The position numbers and the translations under genes were made by a program. This document shows, one piece after another, positions 1-23,653 of a stretch of DNA of 23,653 nucleotides. Origin of the DNA: Rodentolepis nana (lineage: Eukaryota; Platyhelminthes; Cestoda; Cyclophyllidea; Hymenolepididae); NCBI GenBank assembly GCA_900617975.1, contig UZAE01013330.1, positions 1-23,653 of the forward strand, given 5' to 3'. The notes under the pieces are model-generated. The model was not told the DNA's origin, searched no databases, and saw only the letters and a program-made list of their open reading frames with translations. The stretch's first letter is position 1; every line of letters begins with the position of its first letter.

Positions 1-40
1 CCCAGAGTGCACCACGTGGAGGTAAGTCTATCGCATACCC
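1..40 (-). mobile_element. SINE-like repeat, copy A (5' end only, cut by window edge)
   Basis: These 40 bases match the conserved 5' end of the dispersed repeat seen at 10046, 12467, 13635, 15226, 22278 and 23605. The element's sense strand is taken as the one ending in the LINE-like tail, so this copy is on the minus strand. It includes the CACGTG palindrome and, on the plus strand, the GAG-GTAAGT string. The rest of the copy lies outside the window. Confidence 0.8.
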
Positions 41-3537: not shown

Positions 3538-6424
3538 CTAGTCAAATTGGGAGAGGTCAACAATGTTCCACTTGGCAGCCTGTTGTTCCCCATCCTGCTC
3601 AAGCTTTGCATCCTTAGGTCCAAGCACAGCTCGTCCAACATGCGTCTGACTTGCCAACTGGTCACGAAGACACTGAGCTGCTTGCTTCAAGGCTGGTTCA
3701 TCCACTTTGAAAAGAAGTTCACGATGATTCTGACGCTCTTCATCGCCGATGGTAGTCAAGAAAGCGTTCAACCCACGTGAGCCTGCTGAAACCGGACTAT
3801 CCAACTACAGATAAGGAGGAAAAAATGACAAGTTAGATGAAACCGCCATCTATTTCAATGATTGCATTCAGTTGCCTAGAGACCCTAACAGCTCATTAAT
3901 TTGCACATCAAACAGATACTGACAGTATTCAGCTGCTCATGGCTTTGAAAATACATAATTGAAAACAATTTGATCTAATTTTAAGAGGGGAAAAATTGAA
4001 TATTTAATTACCTCTTGGAAGACGGATAACTTGGCTTCAACGATATCCTGTTGCTTGAATTCGGTAGAGAGTGCAAAATCAAGAGATTTTTCAAACACTT
4101 TCAAGGTAGGTCCGGCAGATGGATCTCTGTAGGAAATAACGAACAAAAAGTTAAACACCAATTACATCTTACCACCATCATTATTGCATGCATTAATGGC
4201 AAAGTAAAAAAATTCGCTATATTTATTTTGAAGATATTTAATTTAAAAATTCTCATCGTCCTTGAATACGAGATTCATCAGATGGATCGCCTTTTTTGGT
4301 TTCATGGGTCAACTCCAACACGTCATGTTCAAATATTCGAACATCAATAAACACAATTGGAAGCAGAGAGCCACCCAAAGCAGCTGAGATAAAGGAATGT
4401 AGAAAACTCTATGAGCTGCTGAGAGAGAAAAACAAAACAGTGGTCCTACAATGGATTCCTGGTCGCTGTGGCATTAAAGGCAATGAGCTTGCTGACACAC
4501 TTGCTAAGAAGGGGACAACGATTTTGCAATGCATGGACCGGCCGATGTCTTTCCACACAATGAAGGCCTTAATCAGAAGAGAATTCCAGACCTCAAGGTG
4601 CAACGAACTTAAAGCTTGAACAAAGGAGAAACAGTGGACAGTGGCACTCTCCGATATAGCTGACTGACCAAGAATCGAAGCCGTTGGTGAGTTTAGACTA
4701 CGTACCGGACACGATTGCTTGGCAAAACATCTTCACAAATTGGGAGTATGCACTCAACCCACATGCCCCCTATGTAACCTACAGGAGGAAATGGAGAAGA
4801 CCCACCTGATTCGATGTCCAGCCCTAAAGACAACGACGGAAAGCCAGAGATACTGGGAAGCAAGAAGACGGCTAATGAACTGCTATATATGTACCCCCAC
4901 CCAAGGGGGAAGCTGAAGTCAAAGTTTGAGGGCTAATGATAAATATCATAAAGCCTGCCATTTGAAATAATAATAATATTCGAACATTCACACCCCAGAA
5001 TGTGCTACCATCCAGTGAAGTGGTTGGAGTAACCGAATTTGACGTTGGCAAATTAGGAGCGACAAAATCATAGGAACTAATGAACTAGAAGCCCATTATA
5101 GAAGAGCAAAGATTAATGTTGCAAGCAAACAATAGTTTCAAAGAGTGCAACACAAAGAATTGTGGAAGTCGTGCATTGAATAAATCAGGTCGAGAAGCTG
5201 AGCGAGTGAGAGAGGAAAGCGAACGAAGAGATAAAAGAAAAGTGTGTGTGTGCGAAAGTTGGAAATACACGCACAGTGTCTATATGATGGGTACATGAGT
5301 AGATAACTACAGCATACTTTTAAATGAAAATTGACGCCGTCATTGAAAAAAAGGAGAAATAATAAACTTCTCAAGACATGCACATGGGGTTGAACCACAA
5401 GAGTCCAAAGACGTTAGCGCAGTTTTGTGGACAAAAACCCAAAAAGTGTGTTGAATCATTCTTCTAGTTCAGGCAACCCAAGTACAGAGCACATAGAACA
5501 ACTGATTAATTATGAATCCCGATACACCTAACTGCTGCTTTAACGTCCTTAGGGGACCGTACAGTCCTCCTTCGAAATAGGCTCCATTGGTACAACAGAC
5601 TCGTAACAGAAGCGGCGCTACTATTGGCGTTTGAAACATGTTCAACACGTGTCTATGTAGCCTTCACCTGTTACCGCCAAAACTCATCACATCGGCGGCA
5701 TCACTCCGATGTAGGACGCGCGTGAGAGAGGTTGGGTGCATTTTTCACAAAACATAAATAATTCGGGCTTTAAAGGGTTAACAGCCAGGAGCAACTATAA
5801 ATGAATCTAGCTGATGAATAATACTCAATTTGGGGGTAGGTCGATTGTCGAACCTTACATAAACCATGAGACTCTCGACTTACCTATAGGAGTAGAAGGC
5901 AAAACGACCGGGGTTGACACAGCTGCCCCCACCATAGGCGCCACCCTGTTCTCTGATAGCTGTGTGAAGGAATGAGGAATGCAACCACTTCGACAATACT
6001 CGATATCTAATAAAGCAATGAGATGAAAAAAAGAACCTCGTTCATATTTAAACATGGGATGTACACATAAAGCATCAATTTTCCAACGTCCAGGGTTAGA
6101 AAATTTAAAAAAAGCATCAACTTAACACTCCACTGCAATATTATTATGGCAAACTCACGCGGGAAAATCAGGGGAGGTGTAGTAAGGTGCAGGTAGAGCC
6201 AGACTGGTATAGTGAACTGAGTAGGGGAGGGCAACATGGGCGCTGTTTGATTCCAATGGAGTCGGGTCAGGAGTCGATTTCACGCTCTCGACCTCCGCAG
6301 AAGTTTCCTTAAGTGGAAGGGTTTTGAGGAATGCTTCCAATTGTTGACATGCTGGGGCAAGATTGTTTTGCTCGGCGTGAAGGCTGAACCTAGAACACAA
6401 AATCTTTACATTTCAATTTTTAAG

Positions 6425-6461
<37 letters not shown>

Positions 6462-9400
6462 TAGGACAATAAAATGTCTAGATTCATGCAGGAAACGGAT
6501 TTCGTAACTATTTCTCCTCTCTGTGTCAATGATGTATCAAAGATACACACTAGAGTAATAAAAGTCGTAATCAGATTATTTCCGTTGAAGGGTATTAGTC
6601 AATACGGTTGGTCATTTCAATTACTGAATATGCGCACAACCGACTAACCTGAGTCTGCTCGGATTGAGCAGCAGATGATCGGCGATCGTTCGGAGCTTGT
6701 TGATGAAGTCCTCAAAAGCGCGGTCACAATCGGTGGAATCCGCATTGGTAAGAAGACGAGCAGCAAGGTGGCGCATGAAAGCTGCTTGCTCCACTCCACC
6801 CCAGAGCTCAGAGATTCGCCCGATTGAGTTGAGATTGGCGGAGGCACGACGCATTGCAAAACGATGGGCTGAAAAGAAGAAGAAGACGAATAATTAGACA
6901 CAGTGATTTGGCAAAGGCTGGACTGATAAAACATGGCGGTTCATCATTGCTCCTATTGCCAAATAAAGGCGACTGTCACGGATAAACCACCTCAACGGAT
7001 TTCTCCTCAAATTCCCGAATTGGTAGCTTAGTCGCGCTCTTCTACCTACGACTCGATCGTACGGTTCCCTGGGAGGAACGTCGAATAAGTGTCCTCTTAA
7101 CACAGTTAATCGTTGCATCTTTGCCCGTAGTGTGAAGAAGGAAACATATTAGCTTGAAGGATAGGTAACTTATATGACTACCAAAAGTACTGACAGAACA
7201 CAAGTCCTGTGGATTTATTTCCCACTTTCCCATATACAGGGTGTCTCAAACTGACGCCCATTTTGATCCAGACATTGCTGACAACGACAAGCAATGGAGT
7301 AACATACATTGTGAAATAATTCCCTTGGGATTTGGACGCATTCATGCCCAATGGCTTCTCTTAATTCAGTTAATGCTGTAGGTTTTGTAGCGTAGACTTT
7401 GTCTTTTAAACAGTCCCATGGGAAAAAATGTTAGTGATGTGGGGTCTAGTGAACGGAGAGGATATTCAACAAAACCTCTTTGTCCAAACCACCTGTTTGG
7501 CAAGACCTAACGTGGAGTTGTTAATGTGGGGGTGCCCCATCTTGCTGAAAGAAAAACTCTTCATCTTCAAAGTCTTCTCTAAAGCTTGGCATAACAGACT
7601 GCTACGGAATAAAGAAATAATAATAAACACAGTGTTTACAATTATTTTAAGCGTGCATACATTTTTAAGACACACTGTGCAACTGCATTTTGATTACTGA
7701 TTGACCCACTCTCACTTTTGCTTTACTTTCACCAACAGACGCATTATTTCCACTCTCATCTCAATCTAATTATATATCCTAATTGTTATCCAACATTGTT
7801 CTTCATTCCACTATTGTACGGTCACATTTGCGAGGTCTACGGTTTTCTGTTAGCTACCAGGAAGATCATAGTTCCATAGGTGGTTTAACCCTACAAAATT
7901 GAATTGGGAAATGTAAAAAATTGGTGACTAAAATAGAAGCTAACTTATTCCCCGAAATTCTTAGAGCTTCTTCACGTCTCCACGCAAAAACTACCAGTTT
8001 TAGATAATAGAAGTGACAAGATTAATGAATGGGATAAGCCACAAACCATCATGTGAGAGTGCATTGGCAGACCACTGGCCCGAAGCATCCGCAGCCAGTA
8101 GAGTTGCAATCCTTGTCCTATCAAGCCAATCATTTCCACGCAGACGCTTCTCCACCAGTTCGAGCATCTTCGGCACTCTGTCAGACAGACAGTAAGATGA
8201 GATATGAACATGGCGAGTGCAGGGCTCGGTCTCAGGGGTTGTCAAGCTAATCATAGCATGGGGAAAGGCTGAAAGGGTCCCAGTATTAAGTTCTTGTTGA
8301 AGGTCCATTTCTTGATAGGTAAGACCATCAGCCCCGAGTCTAAAGTGTAAGGAAAACAACAACTAATACAAAAGATTCAAAATTTGAAAGCTTAACTAGC
8401 TCCCCTAAAGATAAGAGTAGTAAAAATGAAAGAACAAAAAAGAGTCCAACTTACTGTGAGAAGAGAGATGTAAAAACAGGGACGTAGACGAGAAGGTCCT
8501 GTGATAGATCCGATATATTAGCGAGTGTGTGGAAATAAACAAGGCCATTAGTTGGTGCTTCATTCAACTGGACAGATGATCCACAAATGTCAGTCTCAGT
8601 GAAGGGTTCTGGTCTGCAATTCGGGGGGATATCAACGAGACCGAGAGAGGGTAGACAGGAGACATCCTCATTTTCTTGGCTCTTTTGCTCCTCCGCTAGT
8701 TCAATAGCTGAAAATAAACGAAGTACACTACTTGCAAATCAGCTCAGTAGTGGAGTAGAAAAAAAACAAGACAGCAGTAGAATTGACGCACCTTCCTTGA
8801 TAATCACTTCTCTCTTTTCTGGTGTGAGATCTTTAACAGCCCTTTCTTGTCGCTGTGCCTCCTTCACTTTCTGCTTAGTCTCAAACGTCTCATCAGGCAC
8901 CATAATCACCGAAAGACGGTGTGGATTTTTCACCAAATACTGATCGATGAGTTTCTCAAGCATATGTGGATCCTCAACAAGTTGAGATTTAAATGTATCC
9001 ACGAGTTGTTGAACTGAAAGAGCTCTCTGAATATCTCCACCATGGTTCACGATTCCTGCAAGACCGAGAATAGCTGACAAACCGAATCTCGTATTGTCCT
9101 GTTTTAGGGCGATTTCTTGTTGGTGTAATACAGCTTCAATGCGCTCCTACGAAAACAAATAGACCAGTGATATTTGTAGTAAGCAGGCCTACATATAACA
9201 AGACAAACCTTTTGGAATCCGGTTTTAATAGTGTTCTCAAGGATCTCCATCACTGTCCTCTCAACACGCTCTGTATCAGGGCCAGGTCGAACACCCTGGA
9301 GACCAACGTGAAAACAAGTTGTACGATTATTGCGATCCATTCCATTAATAGGAGAGGCCCAGTCAACACCCAAACCGGATTCGATGAGACCCTGGTAAAG

Positions 9401-11645
9401 GGGTGCACTGTCACCGTCAATTAGGAGAGAGGTTGCGATGGCAAGAGCAAAATTGGTGTAGATATCACAGATGCTGCAAGGAATGAGGAGCATAAAGCGA
9501 CACTATTCACCTTCTGGCAGACCTTAGAAACTAGTCCAATTGAAGTCTTGGACAATAGCATAGTAGGCACTATGGGCTTATGGCTTTTAAATAATTGTGA
9601 TGGCGTTAGTACTTACTCGATGAGTGCGAAGCTAACGGAAACCACACCCGTTCTGGTGGGATCAGCTAAAGTTGAATCCGGTTGGCAGGCTACTTGCATT
9701 CGTCTCTGAAGGACGAAAAAAGGGGCAATGATTAAGAAACCAATTTTTACAGAATAATGAAAAATATTTTCAAATAGAAATGTTTCCTAACAAGTGGACA
9801 ACGGCCTGCGTGCATCAGGTGGCAAAATTAATGATTTATTAAACGAAGTTGTGGTGTTATTTTAAGCAATTGCAGCAAATTTGGAAAGAATACATCAAGT
9901 AGCCTACAAAGGAAAATAATGACACCAACTCCTCAAAGCCACTACGAAGTAGTCAAAGACAACAGCAATTCCACGGAATAGTATGAAGAATGACTCCCTA
10001 AGCGTTTTGAAGTTTTTATTTCATCGCACTCTATTATTCAAGTACGGGGTGTGCGATAGACTTACCTCCACGTGGTGCACCCTGGGGAACGTATACTCAT
10101 ACGGCAAAAAAGTCTAAACTGGCAGTTGACTTCTGACTTCAAATTGCCATCACCCCACTGTATGTCATATTCGACCCCTTCCACAGTACTCAACTTACCT
10201 TTTCTCTGCCTTTTTGTCTGTCTCTGTTACATCTGTGAATCATTATTCTGTCCCCCCTCTCGACTTTTTGTCACTTTGATGCTCCTCCTCCTCTCTGCGA
10301 AGCCCGAAGTCAGCTAAATGGCTAATGATAACTATCAAAACGCCTGTTACTCTAATAATATGGATAAGAAAAAAGAATACATCAAAATCATAAATTATCT
10401 AATAAATAAATAGGTACCTAATACACCACAAAGAATGGACACTTTTATGACCCATTTATAGAAATATAAAAGCAAAACAAGACTTAAATCAACCAAGTCA
10501 CAATTAGTGACGAAATAACTACCGGCTCTGTCCATCTAGGTTCTAAAGGTACTTTCGGCGATGGATCTTGGGCATCGAATTTCGAGAGGCACTGAGCATC
10601 CAAGTATTCCAAGCACCCATCCAACTCCATATTTCCGTAAGTATAGAAGCTGCAATCGAAATTAGATTAATATAAAAATGCCTTCAGATGTACATAGTAG
10701 ACAAAGTACACACTTGGCGTTACTGGGATGGTAAAAAGTACTATGGAATTTCTTCAGATCCTTCCAGGTAAGATTTGGAATACAATCAGGATGGCCTCCA
10801 CTAACATATCCGTAACTCACTGGGAGCAGATTATTCTCCACAACTTGAGCCAAATGATTTAGAGAGTTGGACTAAAGAACAAAAGATTCCTTCAAAATAC
10901 ACCCTAATCAAGATCTAATGTTATAGAGAAAATGGATCAAAACTTACAAATACACCCTTCATTTCGTTGTAAACAACGCCTTTAAGGATAAGTTTAGAAG
11001 AAGAATCTGTAAGATTTTCAGGTTCCAGACGCCAGCCTTCTTGCCTGAAAAGCAGGATTAGTTAAAACAAAGAAAGGGCAAAGTGATTATACACTAAAAT
11101 AACCCACATGAAATCTAATTTTGTTAATTTAGGGAAGAATGCTGCATCTACGTATACAGACAGAAGATTTTCGTAATCCGTACTATTCATCGTGCTGAAG
11201 GGATACATAGTCCAATCGTTAGCTGTGTAAGCGTTCATGAAAGTAGCCTGACTTCGACGAAGCATTTTCATGAATGGGTCTCGAACAGGATATTTTTGAG
11301 AACCGCAAAGTACGGTGTGCTCAAGAATGTGAGAAACTCCAGTACTATCAGATGGTGTCGTCCTAAACTGGACACTAATTGAAAAAAACACGCGGTAGTC
11401 TCACCAACAACATTTGTGTAAATTACTGTTACTATCTACTTACCTAAATGCTCGATTAGGGTCATCACGGAACAAATGAACTAAATTAGCCCCGGATTTT
11501 TCATGGTGCATTTGCACAACAAACAATTTAAACTCGTCAATGTTAAATGACTGAAGAATGAATAAGAATAATAGTATTTTACTTTAAGCACCCGAAACCC
11601 TCGAAGTAAATTACCGCTATTTAAAGCGGCGATTTTTTCCAACAT
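3538..11645 (-). CDS. PITRM1: Presequence protease, mitochondrial (M16C metalloprotease), 16 exons, complete
   Basis: PITRM1/PreP degrades cleaved targeting presequences and other short peptides in the mitochondrial matrix. Exons in transcript order: 11583-11645, 11444-11550, 11108-11374, 10948-11044, 10714-10871, 10523-10649, 9617-9705, 9209-9473, 8792-9146, 8455-8707, 8047-8339, 6649-6868, 6159-6389, 5884-6006, 4012-4126, 3538-3804. All have GT-AG borders and matching phases, summing to 3030 nt and 1009 residues (human about 1037). The inverted zinc motif HILEH is at residues 72-76, and the third ligand is E173 in YNEMKG, 98 residues after E75. The C-terminal half has [11 protein letters not shown] with R860 and Y866, the conserved Arg/Tyr pair of the family. 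The end ([16 protein letters not shown], then ...[12 protein letters not shown]) also matches. The start is the first in-frame ATG; little or no targeting peptide precedes the conserved region, so a 5' exon could be missing. Introns hold a LINE, a mariner remnant and a SINE-like copy. Confidence 0.95.
4332..4344 (+). repeat. Target-site duplication, left copy, of the LINE insertion
   Basis: AATATTCGAACAT occurs here and again, with no mismatch, at 4975-4987, directly flanking the LINE fragment. A 13-bp direct repeat at both ends of a 5'-truncated element with a simple (AAT)n tail is the hallmark of target-primed reverse transcription. It fixes the insertion limits at 4345 and 4974. Confidence 0.9.
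4345..4916 (+). pseudogene. LINE polyprotein 3' remnant: RNase H and CCHC zinc finger, two stops
   Basis: One frame runs from 4345 to the natural stop TGA at 4914-4916, broken by two internal TGA codons (4617-4619 and 4668-4670) and no frameshift. The first part ends an RNase H fold: [19 protein letters not shown] carries the His-region loop and the last catalytic Asp (GNELAD). The position usually written GHCG has Arg here (GRCG). After the second stop come [17 protein letters not shown] and a CPLC...THLIRCPAL zinc finger, then YWEARRRL, the standard end of this protein type in arthropod LINEs. The copy cannot encode a working enzyme because everything upstream (endonuclease, reverse transcriptase) is missing. 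Confidence 0.9.
4345..4974 (+). mobile_element. 5'-truncated non-LTR retrotransposon (LINE) with RNase H domain
   Basis: This 630-bp insertion lies in PITRM1 intron 14, opposite in strand to the gene. It contains the last part of a LINE open frame (RNase H end plus a C-terminal zinc knuckle), a short 3' untranslated region and an (AAT)n tail. It is bounded by a perfect 13-bp TSD. A C-terminal RNase H places it among I/Jockey-related LINEs, but the clade cannot be fixed from this fragment. Its last ~50 bp (from about 4912) match the 3' end of the SINE-like repeat in this window. Confidence 0.92.
4975..4987 (+). repeat. Target-site duplication, right copy, of the LINE insertion
   Basis: This is the exact second copy of AATATTCGAACAT (first at 4332-4344). 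It follows the (AAT)n tail directly, and the last AAT may belong to either the tail or the duplication. Confidence 0.9.
4988..5883. other. Rest of PITRM1 intron 14; unassigned GC-richer block
   Basis: About 900 bases of intron between the LINE and exon 14. From about 5100 to 5260 the plus strand is purine-rich (GAGAG/AAG runs plus a short GTGTGT). From about 5510 to 5730 the base composition is clearly less AT-rich than in other introns, with a short inverted repeat ACATCGG/CCGATGT at 5689-5712. I find no splice-compatible exon or known element there. Confidence 0.4.
6429..6459. repeat. (AG)n microsatellite in PITRM1 intron 12
   Basis: About 15 uninterrupted AG units. In the direction of PITRM1 transcription it is a (CT)n tract 39-69 nt upstream of the acceptor of the exon at 6159-6389, so it may act as an extended polypyrimidine tract. 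Confidence 0.95.
7237..7612 (-). mobile_element. Decayed mariner/Tc1-like DNA transposon, 3' part
   Basis: The minus strand in PITRM1 intron 11 encodes the C-terminal half of a mariner-type DDE transposase. It has [11 protein letters not shown], whose Asp is the second catalytic residue, and then, in a shifted frame, [11 protein letters not shown], matching the usual SPDLTPLDFF block around the third acidic residue. Next come [20 protein letters not shown] and [14 protein letters not shown]. Stops and at least one frameshift interrupt it. The outer end reads CAGGGTGTCTC just inside a TA dinucleotide (7235-7236), as expected for a terminal inverted repeat with a TA target. The opposite end and the first half of the transposase are missing or unrecognisable; the left limit near 7612 is approximate. 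It runs in the same direction as PITRM1 and is inactive. Confidence 0.82.
7613..8046. other. Remaining PITRM1 intron 11 sequence next to the transposon remnant
   Basis: AT-rich sequence without exons. A short inverted repeat, CACAGTGT near 7628 and ACACTGTG near 7672, could be a worn transposon end, but it does not match the CAGGGTGTC end at 7237. Confidence 0.4.
10046..10359 (+). mobile_element. SINE-like repeat, copy B, in PITRM1 intron 6
   Basis: It begins with the conserved GGGGTGTGCGATAGAC and CCACGTGGTGCACC, passes through a long pyrimidine-rich middle, and ends with GCTAATGATAACTATCAAAACGCCTG and an AT-rich tail. The usual CCATTTGA after GCCTG has been replaced by TTACTCTAATAAT. In PITRM1 RNA the copy is antisense, so it supplies the string GAG-GTAAGT inside an 817-nt intron. 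No clear TSD was found; a possible pair near 10028 and 10349 is too weak to claim. Confidence 0.85.
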
Positions 11646-12466: not shown

Positions 12467-12921
12467 GTTATTGATATCAAATGGCAGGCGACTCGATTGT
12501 TATCATTAGCCCTTTAGTTGACTTCAGGATTCACAGAGGGGAGGAACATCAAACTTCAAAAGTCGAGAGGAGGGAGAGGGGAACGAAAGGGTGTTTCAAA
12601 GATGTAAAAGAGACAGACACAAAGGTAGAATAGGTGAGGTGAATACTGTGGAAATAGTCGAATTTGGCATAGAGTGAGGTGATGGTGAGGAGAGTACTGT
12701 GGAAATAGTCGAACATGGCATAGCGTTTTCAAAGATGTAAAAGAGACAGACACAAAGGTAGAAAACAGGTGGGGCGAGAAATGTAGAAGTAGTGGAATAT
12801 GACATGCAGTGGGGTCATGGTAGTTTGAAGTCAGAAGTCAACTGCCGAATAATGGACTTATTTCATATGAGTATACCTTGCCAGGGTGCCCCACGTGGAG
12901 GTAAGTCTATCGCACACCCCT
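12467..12921 (-). mobile_element. SINE-like repeat, copy C, longest copy with internal duplications
   Basis: This full-length copy runs from the LINE-like tail (GATATCAAATGGCAGGCG on the plus strand) to the GGGGTGTGCG end. Candidate TSDs are 12454-12466 and 12922-12934 (CAAACGCAAATAA and CAACCGGAAATAA, 11/13 identical). It is longer than its relatives because the middle is duplicated with a 133-bp period. It keeps CACGTG and, on the plus strand, GAG-GTAAGT. Confidence 0.88.
12594..12860. repeat. Internal 133-bp tandem duplication within SINE-like copy C
   Basis: TTTCAAAGATGTAAAAG occurs at 12594 and again at 12727, followed each time by AGACAGACACAAAGGTAGAA. Nested in the first unit, ACTGTGGAAATAGTCGAA occurs twice about 50 bp apart (near 12645 and 12695). 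The shorter copies have one of each, so the duplications arose in this copy or its source. Confidence 0.8.
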
Positions 12922-13634: not shown

Positions 13635-13944
13635 ATATCAAATGGCAGGCCTCATGACAAGTATCATTAGCCCTTTAGTTCACTTCGGGCTTCGGAGAGG
13701 GGAGGATCATCAAAGTCATAAAATGAAGAGGGGAGAATAGAAGAGTGATTCACGGTTTTAAGGGGGACAGACATAAAGTTTGAGGAATAGGTGGGGTGAG
13801 TGCAGTGGAAATGGTTATATATGATAACCAGTCTAGTCACGGTAGTTTGAAGCGAGAATTCAACTTCCGGTTAATAGACTTTTTTGCTGTATGAGTATAT
13901 GTTGCCCAGGGTGCACCTCGTGAAGGTATGTCTATCGCATACCC
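13635..13944 (-). mobile_element. SINE-like repeat, copy D, the most diverged full copy
   Basis: It matches the family along its whole length, from ATATCAAATGGCAGGC to TCTATCGCATACCC on the plus strand. It has more substitutions than other copies, including loss of the CACGTG palindrome (CCTCGTGA) and a change of GTAAGT to GTATGT. No TSD was found, in keeping with greater age. Confidence 0.85.
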
Positions 13945-15210
13945 AGTGCCATTGGAAGAATTGTTAAAGTTATTTAAAATTAGTTCGTGGTTTACTTAGT
14001 TTTTTTTAACTTTAATTCTGTAGAGATGCAAAATCCTAACTGACTAACTATCAAAAGATTTCGGTCAAATAAAAAAATAACAAAGGAACTGAATATACCA
14101 AGCTTAAAATTGTCCATGTGATAATTATTTCCAGGATCTTTAATGCGCTAGTGGTAATTTAATTTGTATAACAAGCAGTGTGTAAATGGAACAAAATTCT
14201 ATACAAACGAGTACTTGTAAATCGTGCTTCTTAATTTTATGCTTACATGTTAAGTTGAAACTATAGTCATTACTGAATTTGTTGTCCATCTATTTTGTGG
14301 TTTAGAAATCAAGATGATGGTTAAAAATGAGAAAATTATTTCTTTGAAATGAAATACAAGCAAATGTCATGAGAATTTTAAATATAATTTAGAGATTAGC
14401 AAAATTCGCAACCATGGTAACAAGATTTTAAGAGTTAGAGCCAAGTTCACTGGTTTGCTGTAGGCCCACTTTCGTTAGTGTTGACAAAAACAGCAGCAAA
14501 GCCAAATAGCTAATAATGGCAAACGGCAGACAACGCCCACTTTCAGATAAGAATGTGGAAAGTTGGGGTGAAAAAAACAATAACGGCGTTTAAAATCAAC
14601 GAAAATCCAAGAGAATCAAAATCGATACAACTGCGATTGTGATTTGGACACAAGGTGGAAGGAGTTCAGTGATTGTGCCTTATTTGCATAAACCTTCGAT
14701 TATAAAATCAAATTTGCTTAAACAAAACTTTAGGTCAATAGTTTGCTTAAAAAATAACTTTCAAATTGAGTGCGGTGTGCAATCATTTAAACAAAAATAC
14801 TTTATTGCAGATTATTTCGGTTATAGTCATGACTTGATTCTCTTCTCTATGCGGCCAACAATTGGTGATTTTACAACGAGGTTAAGAAAAAATAACTTTC
14901 CAGAAATCATCCTCCTTCCCACTTTCTTCCTCCAAAATTTCCTCCTCCTAAACTGGCATAAGCACAACGCTACTAATAATAGCATGAAACTGCTGGCAGT
15001 CCTAACTTTATCCTTTACAAGACAAAGTGCAACTTGCCAATACGAACTTCCACTTATTTACGCAACTGCCTATTGGCTCATTTTTGTCATCGGCGTTATA
15101 TACAAGTCACACTCATTCCTCACGTATTAGTTATTTCCAATTTAGAAGAATAATAATTCAGTAAGTTTGCCTGCTTTGAGCTAATTGCGTCTAAATTGGA
15201 ACCTCTCCAT
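13945..15210. other. Intergenic; long but unconvincing open frame
   Basis: A 163-codon open frame (14639-15130, plus strand) lacks an ATG at its start. It is rich in Phe, Leu, Ile and Asn as expected from AT-rich noncoding DNA, and shows no motif. I see no other content. Confidence 0.5.
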
Positions 15211-15225: not shown

Positions 15226-15624
15226 GTTATTTCAAATGGCAGGCGTTATGATAGGTATCATTAGCCCTTTAGTTCCGGCGCCCTGCTTCACAAAAAGGAA
15301 GAGGAACACCAAAGTGGCAAAAAGTTCACAGAAAGGAAGATAAACATCCAAGTGGTAAAAAGTCGCTTCACAGAAAGGAAGAGGAACAGCAAAGTGAAAA
15401 AAAGTCGAAATGGGGACAGAATAATGATTCACAGACGTAAATGAGGCAGACAGACAAAGGTAGAAAAAAGGTGATGTGAGTACTGTGAAATTAGTCGAAT
15501 ATGAAATGCAGTCGGGCCATGGTAGTTTGAAGTCAGAAGTCAACTGCCGGTTAATAGACTTTTGCCGTATGAGAATACGTTGCCCAGGGTGCACCACGTG
15601 GAGGTAAGTCTATCGCACACCCCA
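15226..15624 (-). mobile_element. SINE-like repeat, copy E, full length with 15-bp TSD
   Basis: A complete copy of about 400 bp. In sense direction it has the conserved head (GGGGTGTGCGATAGACTTAC, then CCACGTGGTGCACC), a pyrimidine-rich middle with a local triplication, and the tail GGGCTAATGATACCTATCAT...GCCTGCCATTTGAAATAAC. The head bears no convincing tRNA A and B boxes and no match to 5S or 7SL RNA that I can recognise. The promoter type therefore stays open, and a LINE-derived non-autonomous element is an alternative reading. Confidence 0.9.
15286..15407. repeat. Three tandem units of about 40 bp inside copy E
   Basis: Units start near 15286, 15325 and 15366, each reading roughly (C)TTCACAGAAAGGAAGAGGAACA followed by CAAAGTGGCAAAAAGT. 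Other copies have one unit. Expansion is local to this copy. Confidence 0.8.
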
Positions 15625-15639: not shown

Positions 15640-18026
15640 TATTTACCCCGTTTATTGTTATCGCTGATTTAATTTTAAATGCCTTTAAAGTAATAAAAAA
15701 ATCCACCTCAAACTTCAACAAGACTCAATTCAAATAATTTTAGGCATAAAGGTGACGTCGAAATTTTCAAAATATCATTCACACGACTCCGTACTTAGTT
15801 ACCCATACCGTGCGACACAACGCGTTAGTACACAAAATAGGCGAGTAAATAAAAACAAAAGTGTTTTCATGTCTCGTCTATTACTTATAAAAAAAATAAT
15901 GCATTTATGACTGGAATTGTTGAAAATGCAAATAGTTGCAAATAGGATGACATTGCCAATACAAAATAAAATTAGAAAATTCATGTTTAAAATGCATGTA
16001 AATTAAGTTCAATTACAAACTTCAGAATACTAAATGCCCTCAACTTATTGATCTGCCTTAGAGTCGCAAATTATTGACTACTTTATCATTGCTCTGGTGT
16101 TTGGCATAACTTCAAAGTTGCGCAAAGCAACGTCCTAGCAATTTAGCGCACTTTAACAATTGATAATGGCAATTGCTAATTAAGAATTGTTAATTATTTT
16201 TTTTCCTATATAAGGCTGATCATTTTTATCCGAGTACCTCTAATCTCGCCGTAGAGACACCGTCATTCTTTTTCGCCTTATTTGGGCGTAGGCCTGGTCT
16301 CCAAGCGGACGGCTTAAGTAAATCTGGTAAAATGTTTTCATTTGCTTCCATGATTGCAACCTGTCGGAGGATGTGCTACAAGGAGATGCAGTCTGTATAT
16401 TGTCCGCCACCCCCCGCCCACCCCCCTGCGAAGTCCTTTGTGCGGGTCTTATTTCCTTACGCATCATATTTATTATTCATAAAATTAGCATATTTGTTAA
16501 AGTGCGCTACATTACAGAGACGTTGTTTTGCATAATTTTTAAGCAAAGCCTGCCATTAAGGCAATTAAGTGGTATTATTGGGTTTCATGATTTGTGGTTA
16601 TTTCAGAGACCAATCAGATTGCAGAAAAATATAAAAACGCGCCATTTTTAACCACTAAGGATTTTCACAATTTTAACAGCAAAGAGTCTTCTTTTACTCA
16701 GAAAACAGTTAATTTATCTATTCTTGGAATCTAATTAGGAAGTTCATTTGCAGAAATAAAAGTTCTTCAAGCAAAGATGACTTCATATGTCTCTAGAATA
16801 TCTAGATCTAATGTTCATCGAAATTATTACATAATTTTTGCAAAATCTCAGGCTGCACCTGCCTCTCATAATGTGTTTCCTCACATAATTCTAATTCAGA
16901 TAAACAAACAATGACACAAATTTGCACATTTCATGCCTTAAAATCGATCCAGCATGACTTGCCTTTGCGATTACCCGCGTTTGAGCAACAATCACCCCCA
17001 AAATCCTGCCTTTTTGTTCACTAGATGTAATAAATATGCCTCCTAAACGGACATAAGAAGGGATTTTGTACTTTTGCCTCCTTACATGTCTCGCACCATG
17101 AACAAATCCCCGAATGTTATTCGAGCTCAAGGCACGTTCGCTTGACATCCAAAGTGTTCGACAATTGGTGAAGTTAAATGCAATTAATCTGAGGAAATAA
17201 GTCATGCTAAGTCCCTTTGTCTGACAAATGGAAGAGGGTTGAAAGAGGTGGCACAAAAATGCAAGCGAATCTGCACTTCCTTACAGTCAATATCTTATTG
17301 GCTCTCGAACTGACGTTATCCCTCCCCATCAGTCTTAGAGGGTCTATTCGATGACTCCCTTTGTAGTCGTGATTGATTTGCATTTAAAGTGACCCGAGGT
17401 TTTATTCATCAAATCTGCCACAATCAGTGTCTATCATCGCCAGATGAGACTTTTGCCCAAGTCTAAGTTACAACCTTTTACACTCCTTCAATTTTAAATG
17501 CTTCGGATGGGGAAATGGTTGGCAATATGAGAGGACAACTTCTCGGGTGACAAGTTGAGGGGCGAAGAAGAGACCTTGAATACTTTACAACTTTTGCGGC
17601 TGACGGCGTTAACAATGGCAGCCTTGTCTTTTAAAACAACGAAAATTGCACCTCAATTCGCATTTGAATTTTTACAAAATAATCATAAGCTCATCCATAG
17701 GAATAAAGTAAAAATTTAAAATTACTATTTAAAGATATTAATTATTGAAAATACGGGAATGTTTCTAAATTGTGGGGCCACTACCCGCAATAATTTTTAG
17801 ATCAAGCCTCAAAAATTGAGGCGATGGCTTAATATTGTGATGTTTTGAGATTTTTAGCTATTTGAGGTAGCAAATCAGGTTACAGCGATGTTGAGTCTAC
17901 ATTTTGGTAACGTGGTAACTAAGACCTTCAAACCATATAAACAAAGGTACGCATAGTGCGTAATTTGATTTGAAGGAATTACAAAAGACTTGTACGCCAA
18001 TTAAAAGTAAAATTATTTTCCTCACT
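15640..18026. other. Intergenic, no gene assigned; higher-complexity block 16.2-17.65 kb
   Basis: No exon could be supported. About 16210-16470 and 16890-17640 are less AT-rich and more complex than the surroundings. A 121-codon minus-strand frame at 16891-17256 has no recognisable domain and no splice-compatible neighbours, so I do not call it. The block could hold regulatory DNA, a noncoding RNA or a decayed gene. Confidence 0.4.
17370..17383 (+). promoter_or_regulatory. Overlapping HOX/PBX-like and POU octamer-like motifs
   Basis: TGATTGAT (17370-17377) overlaps ATTTGCAT (17376-17383), the exact octamer ATGCAAAT on the other strand, in the more complex block upstream of VPS13. Motif matching of this kind gives many false positives. 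Confidence 0.2.
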
Positions 18027-18038: not shown

Positions 18039-18153
18039 TATTAATATCAAATGGCAGGCGTTTTGATAGTTATCATTAGCCCTTGAGTTAACTTCAGGCT
18101 TCACAGAGGAGGAGGGAGAACATCAGAGTGTCAAAATTTCGAGAGAGGGTGGG
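18039..18153 (-). mobile_element. SINE-like repeat, copy F, tail half, ends at an N
   Basis: Matches the family from the LINE-like tail (ATATCAAATGGCAGGCGTTTTGATAG... on the plus strand) through CATCAGAGTGTCAAAATTTCGAGAG, then stops abruptly at the N at 18154. The head half is missing here. The piece at 22278-22398 has exactly the missing end and probably belongs to the same insertion. Confidence 0.85.
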
Positions 18154-22277: not shown

Positions 22278-22398
22278 ACAGTGGGGTGATGGTAGTTTGA
22301 AGTCAGAAGTCAACTGCCAGTTGATAGACTTTTTTGCCGTATGAATATACGTTGCCCAGGGTGCCCCACGTGGAGGTAAGTCTATCGCACATCCCCCC
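22278..22398 (-). mobile_element. SINE-like repeat, copy F', head half, begins at an N
   Basis: It runs from ACAGTGGGGTGATGGTAG to CTATCGCACATCCCCCC on the plus strand, which is the head third of the element. The tail part is missing on its left, where the N stands. It keeps the CACGTG palindrome and GAG-GTAAGT. It complements copy F (18039-18153); together they make one element lacking about 100 bp. Confidence 0.85.
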
Positions 22399-23604: not shown

Positions 23605-23653
23605 GGGGTGTGCGATAGACTTACCTCCACGTGGTGCACCCTGGGCAACGTAT
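23605..23653 (+). mobile_element. SINE-like repeat, copy G (head only, cut by window edge)
   Basis: Starts GGGGTGTGCGATAGACTTAC and continues through CCACGTGGTGCACCCTGGG to the end of the window, matching the head of copies B, C and E nearly exactly. The shared start point after unrelated flanks confirms that this is the true 5' end of the family. Confidence 0.9.

Follow-up and report, generated by a model that had tools for sequence, protein, structure and literature searches.

The abundant short repeat of the tapeworm Rodentolepis nana is, with good confidence, a non-autonomous LINE derivative with a ribozyme head, that is, a short internally deleted element (SIDE). Five observations form its basis: the short repeat shares both of its ends with the LINE, its head matches a ribozyme fold, its copies have exact 5' ends, they are flanked by target-site duplications (TSDs), and the patterns that define it were counted at sites across the genome.

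Copies of the LINE and of the short element

We analysed a contig of 23,653 nucleotides, which in its whole length is termed the window. It contains the following copies of the two elements and of their parts:

4332 to 4344: left target-site duplication AATATTCGAACAT of the LINE insertion, 13 bp, repeated at 4975 to 4987
4345 to 4974, plus strand: 5'-truncated LINE copy with the end of the RNase H domain, the C-terminus, the 3' UTR and an AT-rich tail
4909 to 4970, plus strand: 3' block common to the LINE and the short repeat
4975 to 4987: right target-site duplication AATATTCGAACAT of the LINE insertion
10046 to 10346, plus strand: short element copy (SIDE type), delimited by BLAST; tail at ~10319 to 10346
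10046 to 10117, plus strand: candidate HDV-like ribozyme head; RF02682, 41.2 bits, E 8.3e-7 in a 161-base stretch and 1.2e-4 in the whole window
12474 to 12920, minus strand: internally duplicated short element copy; no Rfam match of the head at E ≤ 5, no TSD at a score of at least 10
13635 to 13945, minus strand: diverged short element copy; head RF02682, 23.0 bits, E 2.1, no TSD at a score of at least 10
15226 to 15623, minus strand: short element copy containing internal duplications; TSD of 15 bp, one position mismatched
15554 to 15623, minus strand: candidate HDV-like ribozyme head; RF02682, 42.1 bits at 15621 to 15554, E 7.8e-5 in the whole window
18044 to 18149, minus strand: 5'-truncated copy of the short element that retains the tail and the last part of the body
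22279 to 22395, minus strand: short element head, remainder missing beside an N; RF02682, 35.6 bits at 22393 to 22324, E 0.0024
23605 to 23653, plus strand: short element head, cut by the contig end; RF02682, 24 bits, E 1.2
1 to 40, minus strand: short element head, cut by the contig start

The LINE copy at 4345 to 4974 shows a PF00075 RNase_H match in 4266 to 4616 (27.6 bits, cut-off 25.8), and we take its C-terminus to be a CCHC-like motif. It has at least 39 further matches in the genome, with an identity of 91–94% among the matches listed. The internal duplications of the short element copies at 12474 to 12920 and 15226 to 15623 fall within the body of the element.

Two of the insertions, the LINE copy and the short element at 10046 to 10346, lie between the exons of a presequence protease gene, and both are antisense to it. 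The exons in the window yield a protein of 974 residues that matches the presequence protease of Rodentolepis nana at 97% identity over 99% and that of Hymenolepis diminuta at 86%. In this antisense orientation a ribozyme would be unable to cut the pre-mRNA, but two cases prove nothing. A further translated stretch, on the minus strand at 7218 to 7430, presumably resembles the C-terminus of a degenerate DNA-transposon transposase.

The short element and the LINE share their 3' end

A preliminary description of this DNA claimed that the short repeats carry the tail of the LINE at their ends, and our searches bear this out. BLAST with the window segment 4861 to 4985 recovers 15268 to 15227, 18083 to 18033, 13674 to 13635, 12527 to 12468 and 10320 to 10346, at an identity of 77–93%. 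When the two consensus sequences are compared, the block comprises 62 nt in the LINE and 61 nt in the short repeat and is identical in 54 of 63 columns. Its local score is 35, compared to 10 for the best of 500 shuffles; the shuffles used here, as well as those for the 5' block, the body and the box tests, preserve single-base composition only. The positions that had been listed for the repeat have to be amended. All of them have tails, but in the plus-strand copy at 10046 the position given is that of the head, the tail being at the other end, and the repeat at 18039 has the tail but is 5'-truncated. Moreover, the list was incomplete, as it lacked the heads at 22279 to 22395, 23605 to 23653 and 1 to 40.

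The block is also retained by the LINE. In the loci recovered with an endonuclease query that does not contain the tail, it is present wherever the 3' end is readable (L070, L072 and L076) and in part at the edge of L078. L069 is positive as well; it is the query's own locus, which was first found by a tail-containing query. The 30 LINE loci collected earlier are the best matches of that tail-containing query, and their tails are therefore no test of sharing; the LINE copies it recovered are strongly 5'-truncated. Since the short family is non-autonomous and has the 3' end of the LINE, it very probably borrows the reverse transcriptase of its partner. When the folds of the LINE and short-element 3' blocks are predicted, only an inner hairpin is common to both (z -2.5 for the LINE, -1.1 for the short element), so that any feature recognised by the LINE enzyme stays putative.

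The head of the short element is the 5' end of the LINE

The LINE copies L016, L025 and L033, all of which have TSDs, begin with the same ribozyme head, which lies directly at the target duplication or at most one base from it and is followed by ~30 nt and then by the endonuclease reading frame. The head is also found upstream in all 16 endonuclease-bearing loci, L016's own included. These loci were retrieved with the endonuclease DNA of L016 without the head as the query and are the best 16 of 40 that were scored out of 943 candidates. Starting at G1 and extending across the start codon of the LINE, the 5' blocks of the LINE and of the short element agree in 92 of 108 columns. For the ribozymes proper of the two consensus sequences, 67 of 73 columns are identical; three of the six differences concern paired positions, and all three retain a pair. 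The earlier reading as a SINE with an independent head is thus not supported, since the LINE itself has this head at its 5' end in these three copies and in the 16 loci. The comparison of the LINE 5' end with the head of the short repeat had itself been proposed before, and the match is the outcome that had been associated with a deletion derivative.

The LINE pieces match the endonuclease profiles PF14529/PF03372, the reverse transcriptase profile PF00078 and the RNase H profile PF00075. The endonuclease is closest to proteins of R. nana (best 76% over 85% of the query) and of H. microstoma; next after the tapeworm proteins come named spider proteins with 34–48%. A search for relatives of the LINE among solved structures gave one irrelevant match (E 0.2) and was discarded. 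In L033 the reverse transcriptase part is missing and both ends are present, which shows that internal deletions of such a kind do occur in the LINE family. No gap-free complete LINE copy could be established among the 16 endonuclease loci, since 12 of them contain at least one single N and the others reach the edge of the locus. Such single Ns occur, e.g., at L016:2634, which is L069:1594, and at L083:2692, and in some loci they lie inside the reverse transcriptase part. They are perhaps assembly gaps that were closed with one N, in which case complete LINE copies may be under-represented.

The shared 5' end looks like an HDV-like ribozyme

When the window is searched against all of Rfam, RF02682 (HDV-like ribozyme) matches at the starts of the short repeats, three heads having E values of at most 0.0024 and two more E values of 1.2 and 2.1. 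The best of them scores 42.1 bits, which is below the RF02682 cut-off of 44 (the Rfam gathering score). All matches of the window heads are of the HDV type, and none is of the hammerhead type. This agrees with the earlier remark that the head lacks a clear tRNA, 5S or 7SL origin: no tRNA is found in it, and its Rfam matches at E ≤ 5 are HDV ribozymes only. Genome-wide, 59 places with E ≤ 0.001 were found among 61 that were scored out of 25,212 first-look candidates, and 37 of these 59 pass the cut-off (best 54.5 bits), whereas none of 14 control genomes was matched by RF02682. In the short-element loci L040 to L059, the gathering score is reached by eight heads in seven of the 20 loci. The heads of the LINE match RF02682 at E ≤ 0.1 in nine of the 12 loci tested, with a best score of 40.2 bits that stays under the cut-off of 44; those of L074, L083 and L084 give no match at E ≤ 0.1.

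In our own reading, the fold would consist of P1 (GGGGUGY/GCACCCU), P2 (GAUAGACUU/AAGUCUAUY), P3 (ACC/GGU) and P4 (CGUAU/RUACG), and all four helices can form in the consensus sequences of both the LINE and the short element. P1, P3 and P4 are as in RF00094 and RF02682, whereas P2 is paired in neither model and is read by us. RF00094 scores 33.6 bits versus 50 on the head at 10046 and places the start of P1 there, on the first G of GGGG. The P1 register of RF02682 starts two bases inside ours and includes one or more non-standard pairs; on both strands P1 deviates from the RF02682 consensus with the pairing retained. The GG of P1.1 and the C at the catalytic position in J4/2 presumably have the roles that they have in the HDV core. 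Overall, the head of the short element looks like an HDV-like ribozyme fold, for which self-cleavage is predicted.

By our rule, the ribozyme core and its pairing are kept by 23 of 52 unique short-element heads and by six of 17 LINE heads. From 75 heads, 69 were left after identical ones and any with an N had been dropped. These 69 show no covariation beyond permutation (two double changes versus a permutation mean of 2.65), as is expected of copies that decay neutrally. Covariation among copies was dropped as a proof of the ribozyme, since decaying copies offer no independent proof of activity.

Anatomy and insertion of the short element

We extracted 57 two-ended copies of the short element with a modal length of 319 nt, and 44 of them, those of 250–340 nt, gave a consensus of 321 nt. 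Forty of the 57 come from the loci L040 to L068, which were picked by similarity to the window copy. The loci L009, L039, L069 and L073 overlap the window, L016 or L027 and were excluded from the counts of copies, TSDs, consensus, covariation, boundaries and identity; L073 overlaps L027 in part only, and one LINE head was lost in this way. Along the consensus, the ribozyme and 5' UTR (1 to ~112) are followed by a pyrimidine-rich body of ~140 nt (~113 to 252), the LINE 3' block and an AT-rich tail. Positions 1 to ~112 are the LINE's own 5' end, made up of a candidate HDV-like ribozyme of ~73 nt and a short 5' UTR that extends to the start codon, and the last ~60 nt are the LINE 3' end, which leads into an AT-rich tail such as (ATAA)n.

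Compared with the LINE pieces that were fetched and examined, positions 113 to 252 do not score above shuffles on either strand. The body was thus not recovered as a part of these pieces, and simple internal deletion does not account for everything. The suggestion that the repeat is an internally deleted LINE keeping both ends holds for the ends; the central ~140 nt could not be traced to these pieces.

Copies of 281–359 nt have a mean identity to the consensus of 89.7% (n=14) when their loci were not chosen by the short element and of 91.4% (n=32) when they were. At a score of at least 10, TSDs are detected for 36 of the 57 copies, compared to 0 of 560 mismatched control flank pairs, and the other 21 two-ended copies have none at this score. 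In a boundary test, in which the boundary was movable, 25 of 36 copies with a duplication adjoin exactly the first G of P1 and the others are 1–3 bases off; this test and the TSD test are separate routines, and their two sets of 36 are not matched. The first G of P1 is the site at which HDV-like ribozymes cut. Where the loci had been selected without the short element, copies with body and tail extend to the 5' end in 19 cases, are truncated in four and lie at edges in three. A further 39 matches in these loci consist of the tail only and may be LINE.

Abundance in the genome

In the 107-Mb assembly that was surveyed, the 31-base ribozyme core is found at 15,713 sites and the 36-base tail of the short element at 10,619 sites, each with at most three mismatches and with a reversed-pattern control of 0. 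These numbers are sites rather than elements and include partial and tandem units. The LINE-specific 41 bases that adjoin the start codon occur at 136 sites, which is a low estimate of the number of LINEs, since this pattern is stricter. From the three counts, most ribozyme heads seem to be those of short elements.

The ribozyme head is partially duplicated in tandem, with a spacing of 40 or 80 nt, in L085 (G000 C12:64800-65400), L086 (C26:49250-49750), L087 (C10:26000-26400) and L070:9-194. L085 and L086 have one composite array in common, at two contigs, and L087 is a LINE copy in which the 5' half of the ribozyme and a later stretch are each doubled. Near a short element, at L044:2110-2315, there is also a match to the U3 snoRNA (RF00012, 50.9 bits).

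Transcription, mobilisation and rival explanations

The head had also been proposed for a check of Pol III boxes, and these are at chance level: the A and B boxes are no better than in mononucleotide shuffles, 358 and 320 of 500 of which are as good. Runs of four or more Ts, which stop Pol III, are present in 56 of the 57 copies. A classic SINE, which would have a Pol III head derived from a small RNA and only its 3' end from the LINE, is therefore very improbable. The length, the site counts, the shared 3' end and the TSDs would all be compatible with it, and stringent-type SINE/LINE pairs do have a common 3' tail, as the tapeworm pair has. However, the tapeworm head is not of tRNA, 5S or 7SL type: it matches the ribozyme 5' end of the LINE, LINE copies with the same head at their start contradict a separate origin, and the Rfam matches and Pol III signals described above argue in the same direction. 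Even less probable, to the point of being negligible, is a retrozyme-like element that spreads via circular RNA. At some loci, partial ribozyme units of 40 or 80 nt lie in tandem, which would fit such an element, but retrozymes have hammerhead ribozymes in flanking direct repeats, whereas the ribozyme found here is of the HDV type and the two-ended copies are single-headed in their modal 319-nt form, with TSDs of the LINE type and AT tails.

Two further explanations leave the anatomy as described. The 5' block might contain a promoter of its own, which is somewhat unlikely and yet the strongest of the rivals. It has a precedent in Pr77 of L1Tc, which is promoter and ribozyme in one (PMC4035085), and the entire 5' block rather than the ribozyme alone has been retained; the box check made here covers boxes of the Pol III type. 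The LINE might instead have acquired the ribozyme and tail from the short element, or both elements might have received them from a third LINE that also supplied the body. That the body is not traced to the LINE pieces examined speaks for such a history, and the three differences at paired positions that keep their pairs would fit long upkeep in both lineages. We consider it improbable, as it requires an unseen donor and the LINE has an endonuclease, a reverse transcriptase and an RNase H of its own.

We thus favour a LINE-derived SIDE that would have arisen by deletion and would be co-transcribed without an own promoter. The element would be transcribed within a longer RNA, either a host pre-mRNA or read-through, and an active ribozyme would cut directly 5' of the first G of P1, producing the exact 5' end of the element RNA. 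The LINE protein would then recognise the shared 3' end in trans and insert the RNA by target-primed reverse transcription, generating duplications of ~10–17 bp. Co-transcription and ribozyme processing as in R2 would be the simplest reading, and the TSDs and AT tails of the short copies agree with a putative mobilisation by the LINE protein in trans.

Relation to known elements

The closest likeness is to R2Dwi_SIDE of Drosophila willistoni (Eickbush and Eickbush, 2012; PMC3414825). That element, 529 bp long, combines the ribozyme of R2 with the R2 3' end; the 197 bp between them show no identity to R2 or to anything else in D. willistoni, and self-cleavage of the head was demonstrated in vitro. 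The paper describes SIDEs with a 5' ribozyme as rare, and its animal examples are located in rDNA. R2Dwi_SIDE and the tapeworm element both have an HDV-like 5' ribozyme and a LINE 3' end around an unmatched centre (197 bp in R2, ~140 nt in the tapeworm) and precise 5' ends, and both would use the machinery of their partner. In contrast to the R2 SIDE, which sits in rDNA and whose self-cleavage was measured, the tapeworm insertions that we looked at are dispersed, and the tapeworm ribozyme is a candidate predicted from its sequence. The tapeworm partner LINE has an APE-type endonuclease and RNase H, unlike the partner of the R2 SIDE, and the number of tail sites sets the family apart as well.

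Shared ribozyme ends are also known from trypanosomes. According to PMC4035085, NARTc/L1Tc and RIME/ingi are pairs in which a 77-nt HDV-like ribozyme forms the 5' end common to the LINE and the short element, L1Tc has an endonuclease, a reverse transcriptase and an RNase H, and SIDER2 of Leishmania has two tandem 5' hallmarks. On this basis, the tapeworm pair is alike in its common ribozyme 5' end and in the domain content of its LINE, and the tandem hallmarks of SIDER2 are comparable to the tandem heads of the tapeworm. It differs from the trypanosomal pairs in that their hosts are unicellular and Pr77 is also a promoter; the tapeworm LINE is likened to ingi by its domain content only.

As it has the same anatomy as R2Dwi_SIDE, and shares its ribozyme 5' end as in NARTc/L1Tc and RIME/ingi, the tapeworm family belongs to the SIDE kind. 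Judged by the copies, it is unusual in its number and in its dispersal through an animal genome. In the H. microstoma genome paper (PMC7653826), LINEs are put at 1% of the assembly, and the word SINE is absent from the main text. No such tapeworm family is described by the titles and abstract starts of the full-text matches, and nothing in the full-text literature searched, which leaves most subscription papers outside, brings HDV-like ribozymes and tapeworms together.

Significance

With this assignment, an abundant tapeworm repeat now has a name. As a dispersed family with thousands of copies, it offers a natural experiment on the minimum that LINE mobilisation requires, which would be a self-made 5' end and a 3' end recognised by the enzyme. 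The genome also makes it possible to measure how thousands of candidate self-cleaving RNAs affect introns. Tentatively, and with less than even confidence, we suggest that a promoterless ribozyme-headed SIDE may be the LINE's most successful product, leaving ~10^4 HDV-like ribozymes, or ~1 core per 6.8 kb, many of which may still cut host transcripts. If they do, self-cleavage would free the element and at the same time put a cost on introns that depends on orientation.
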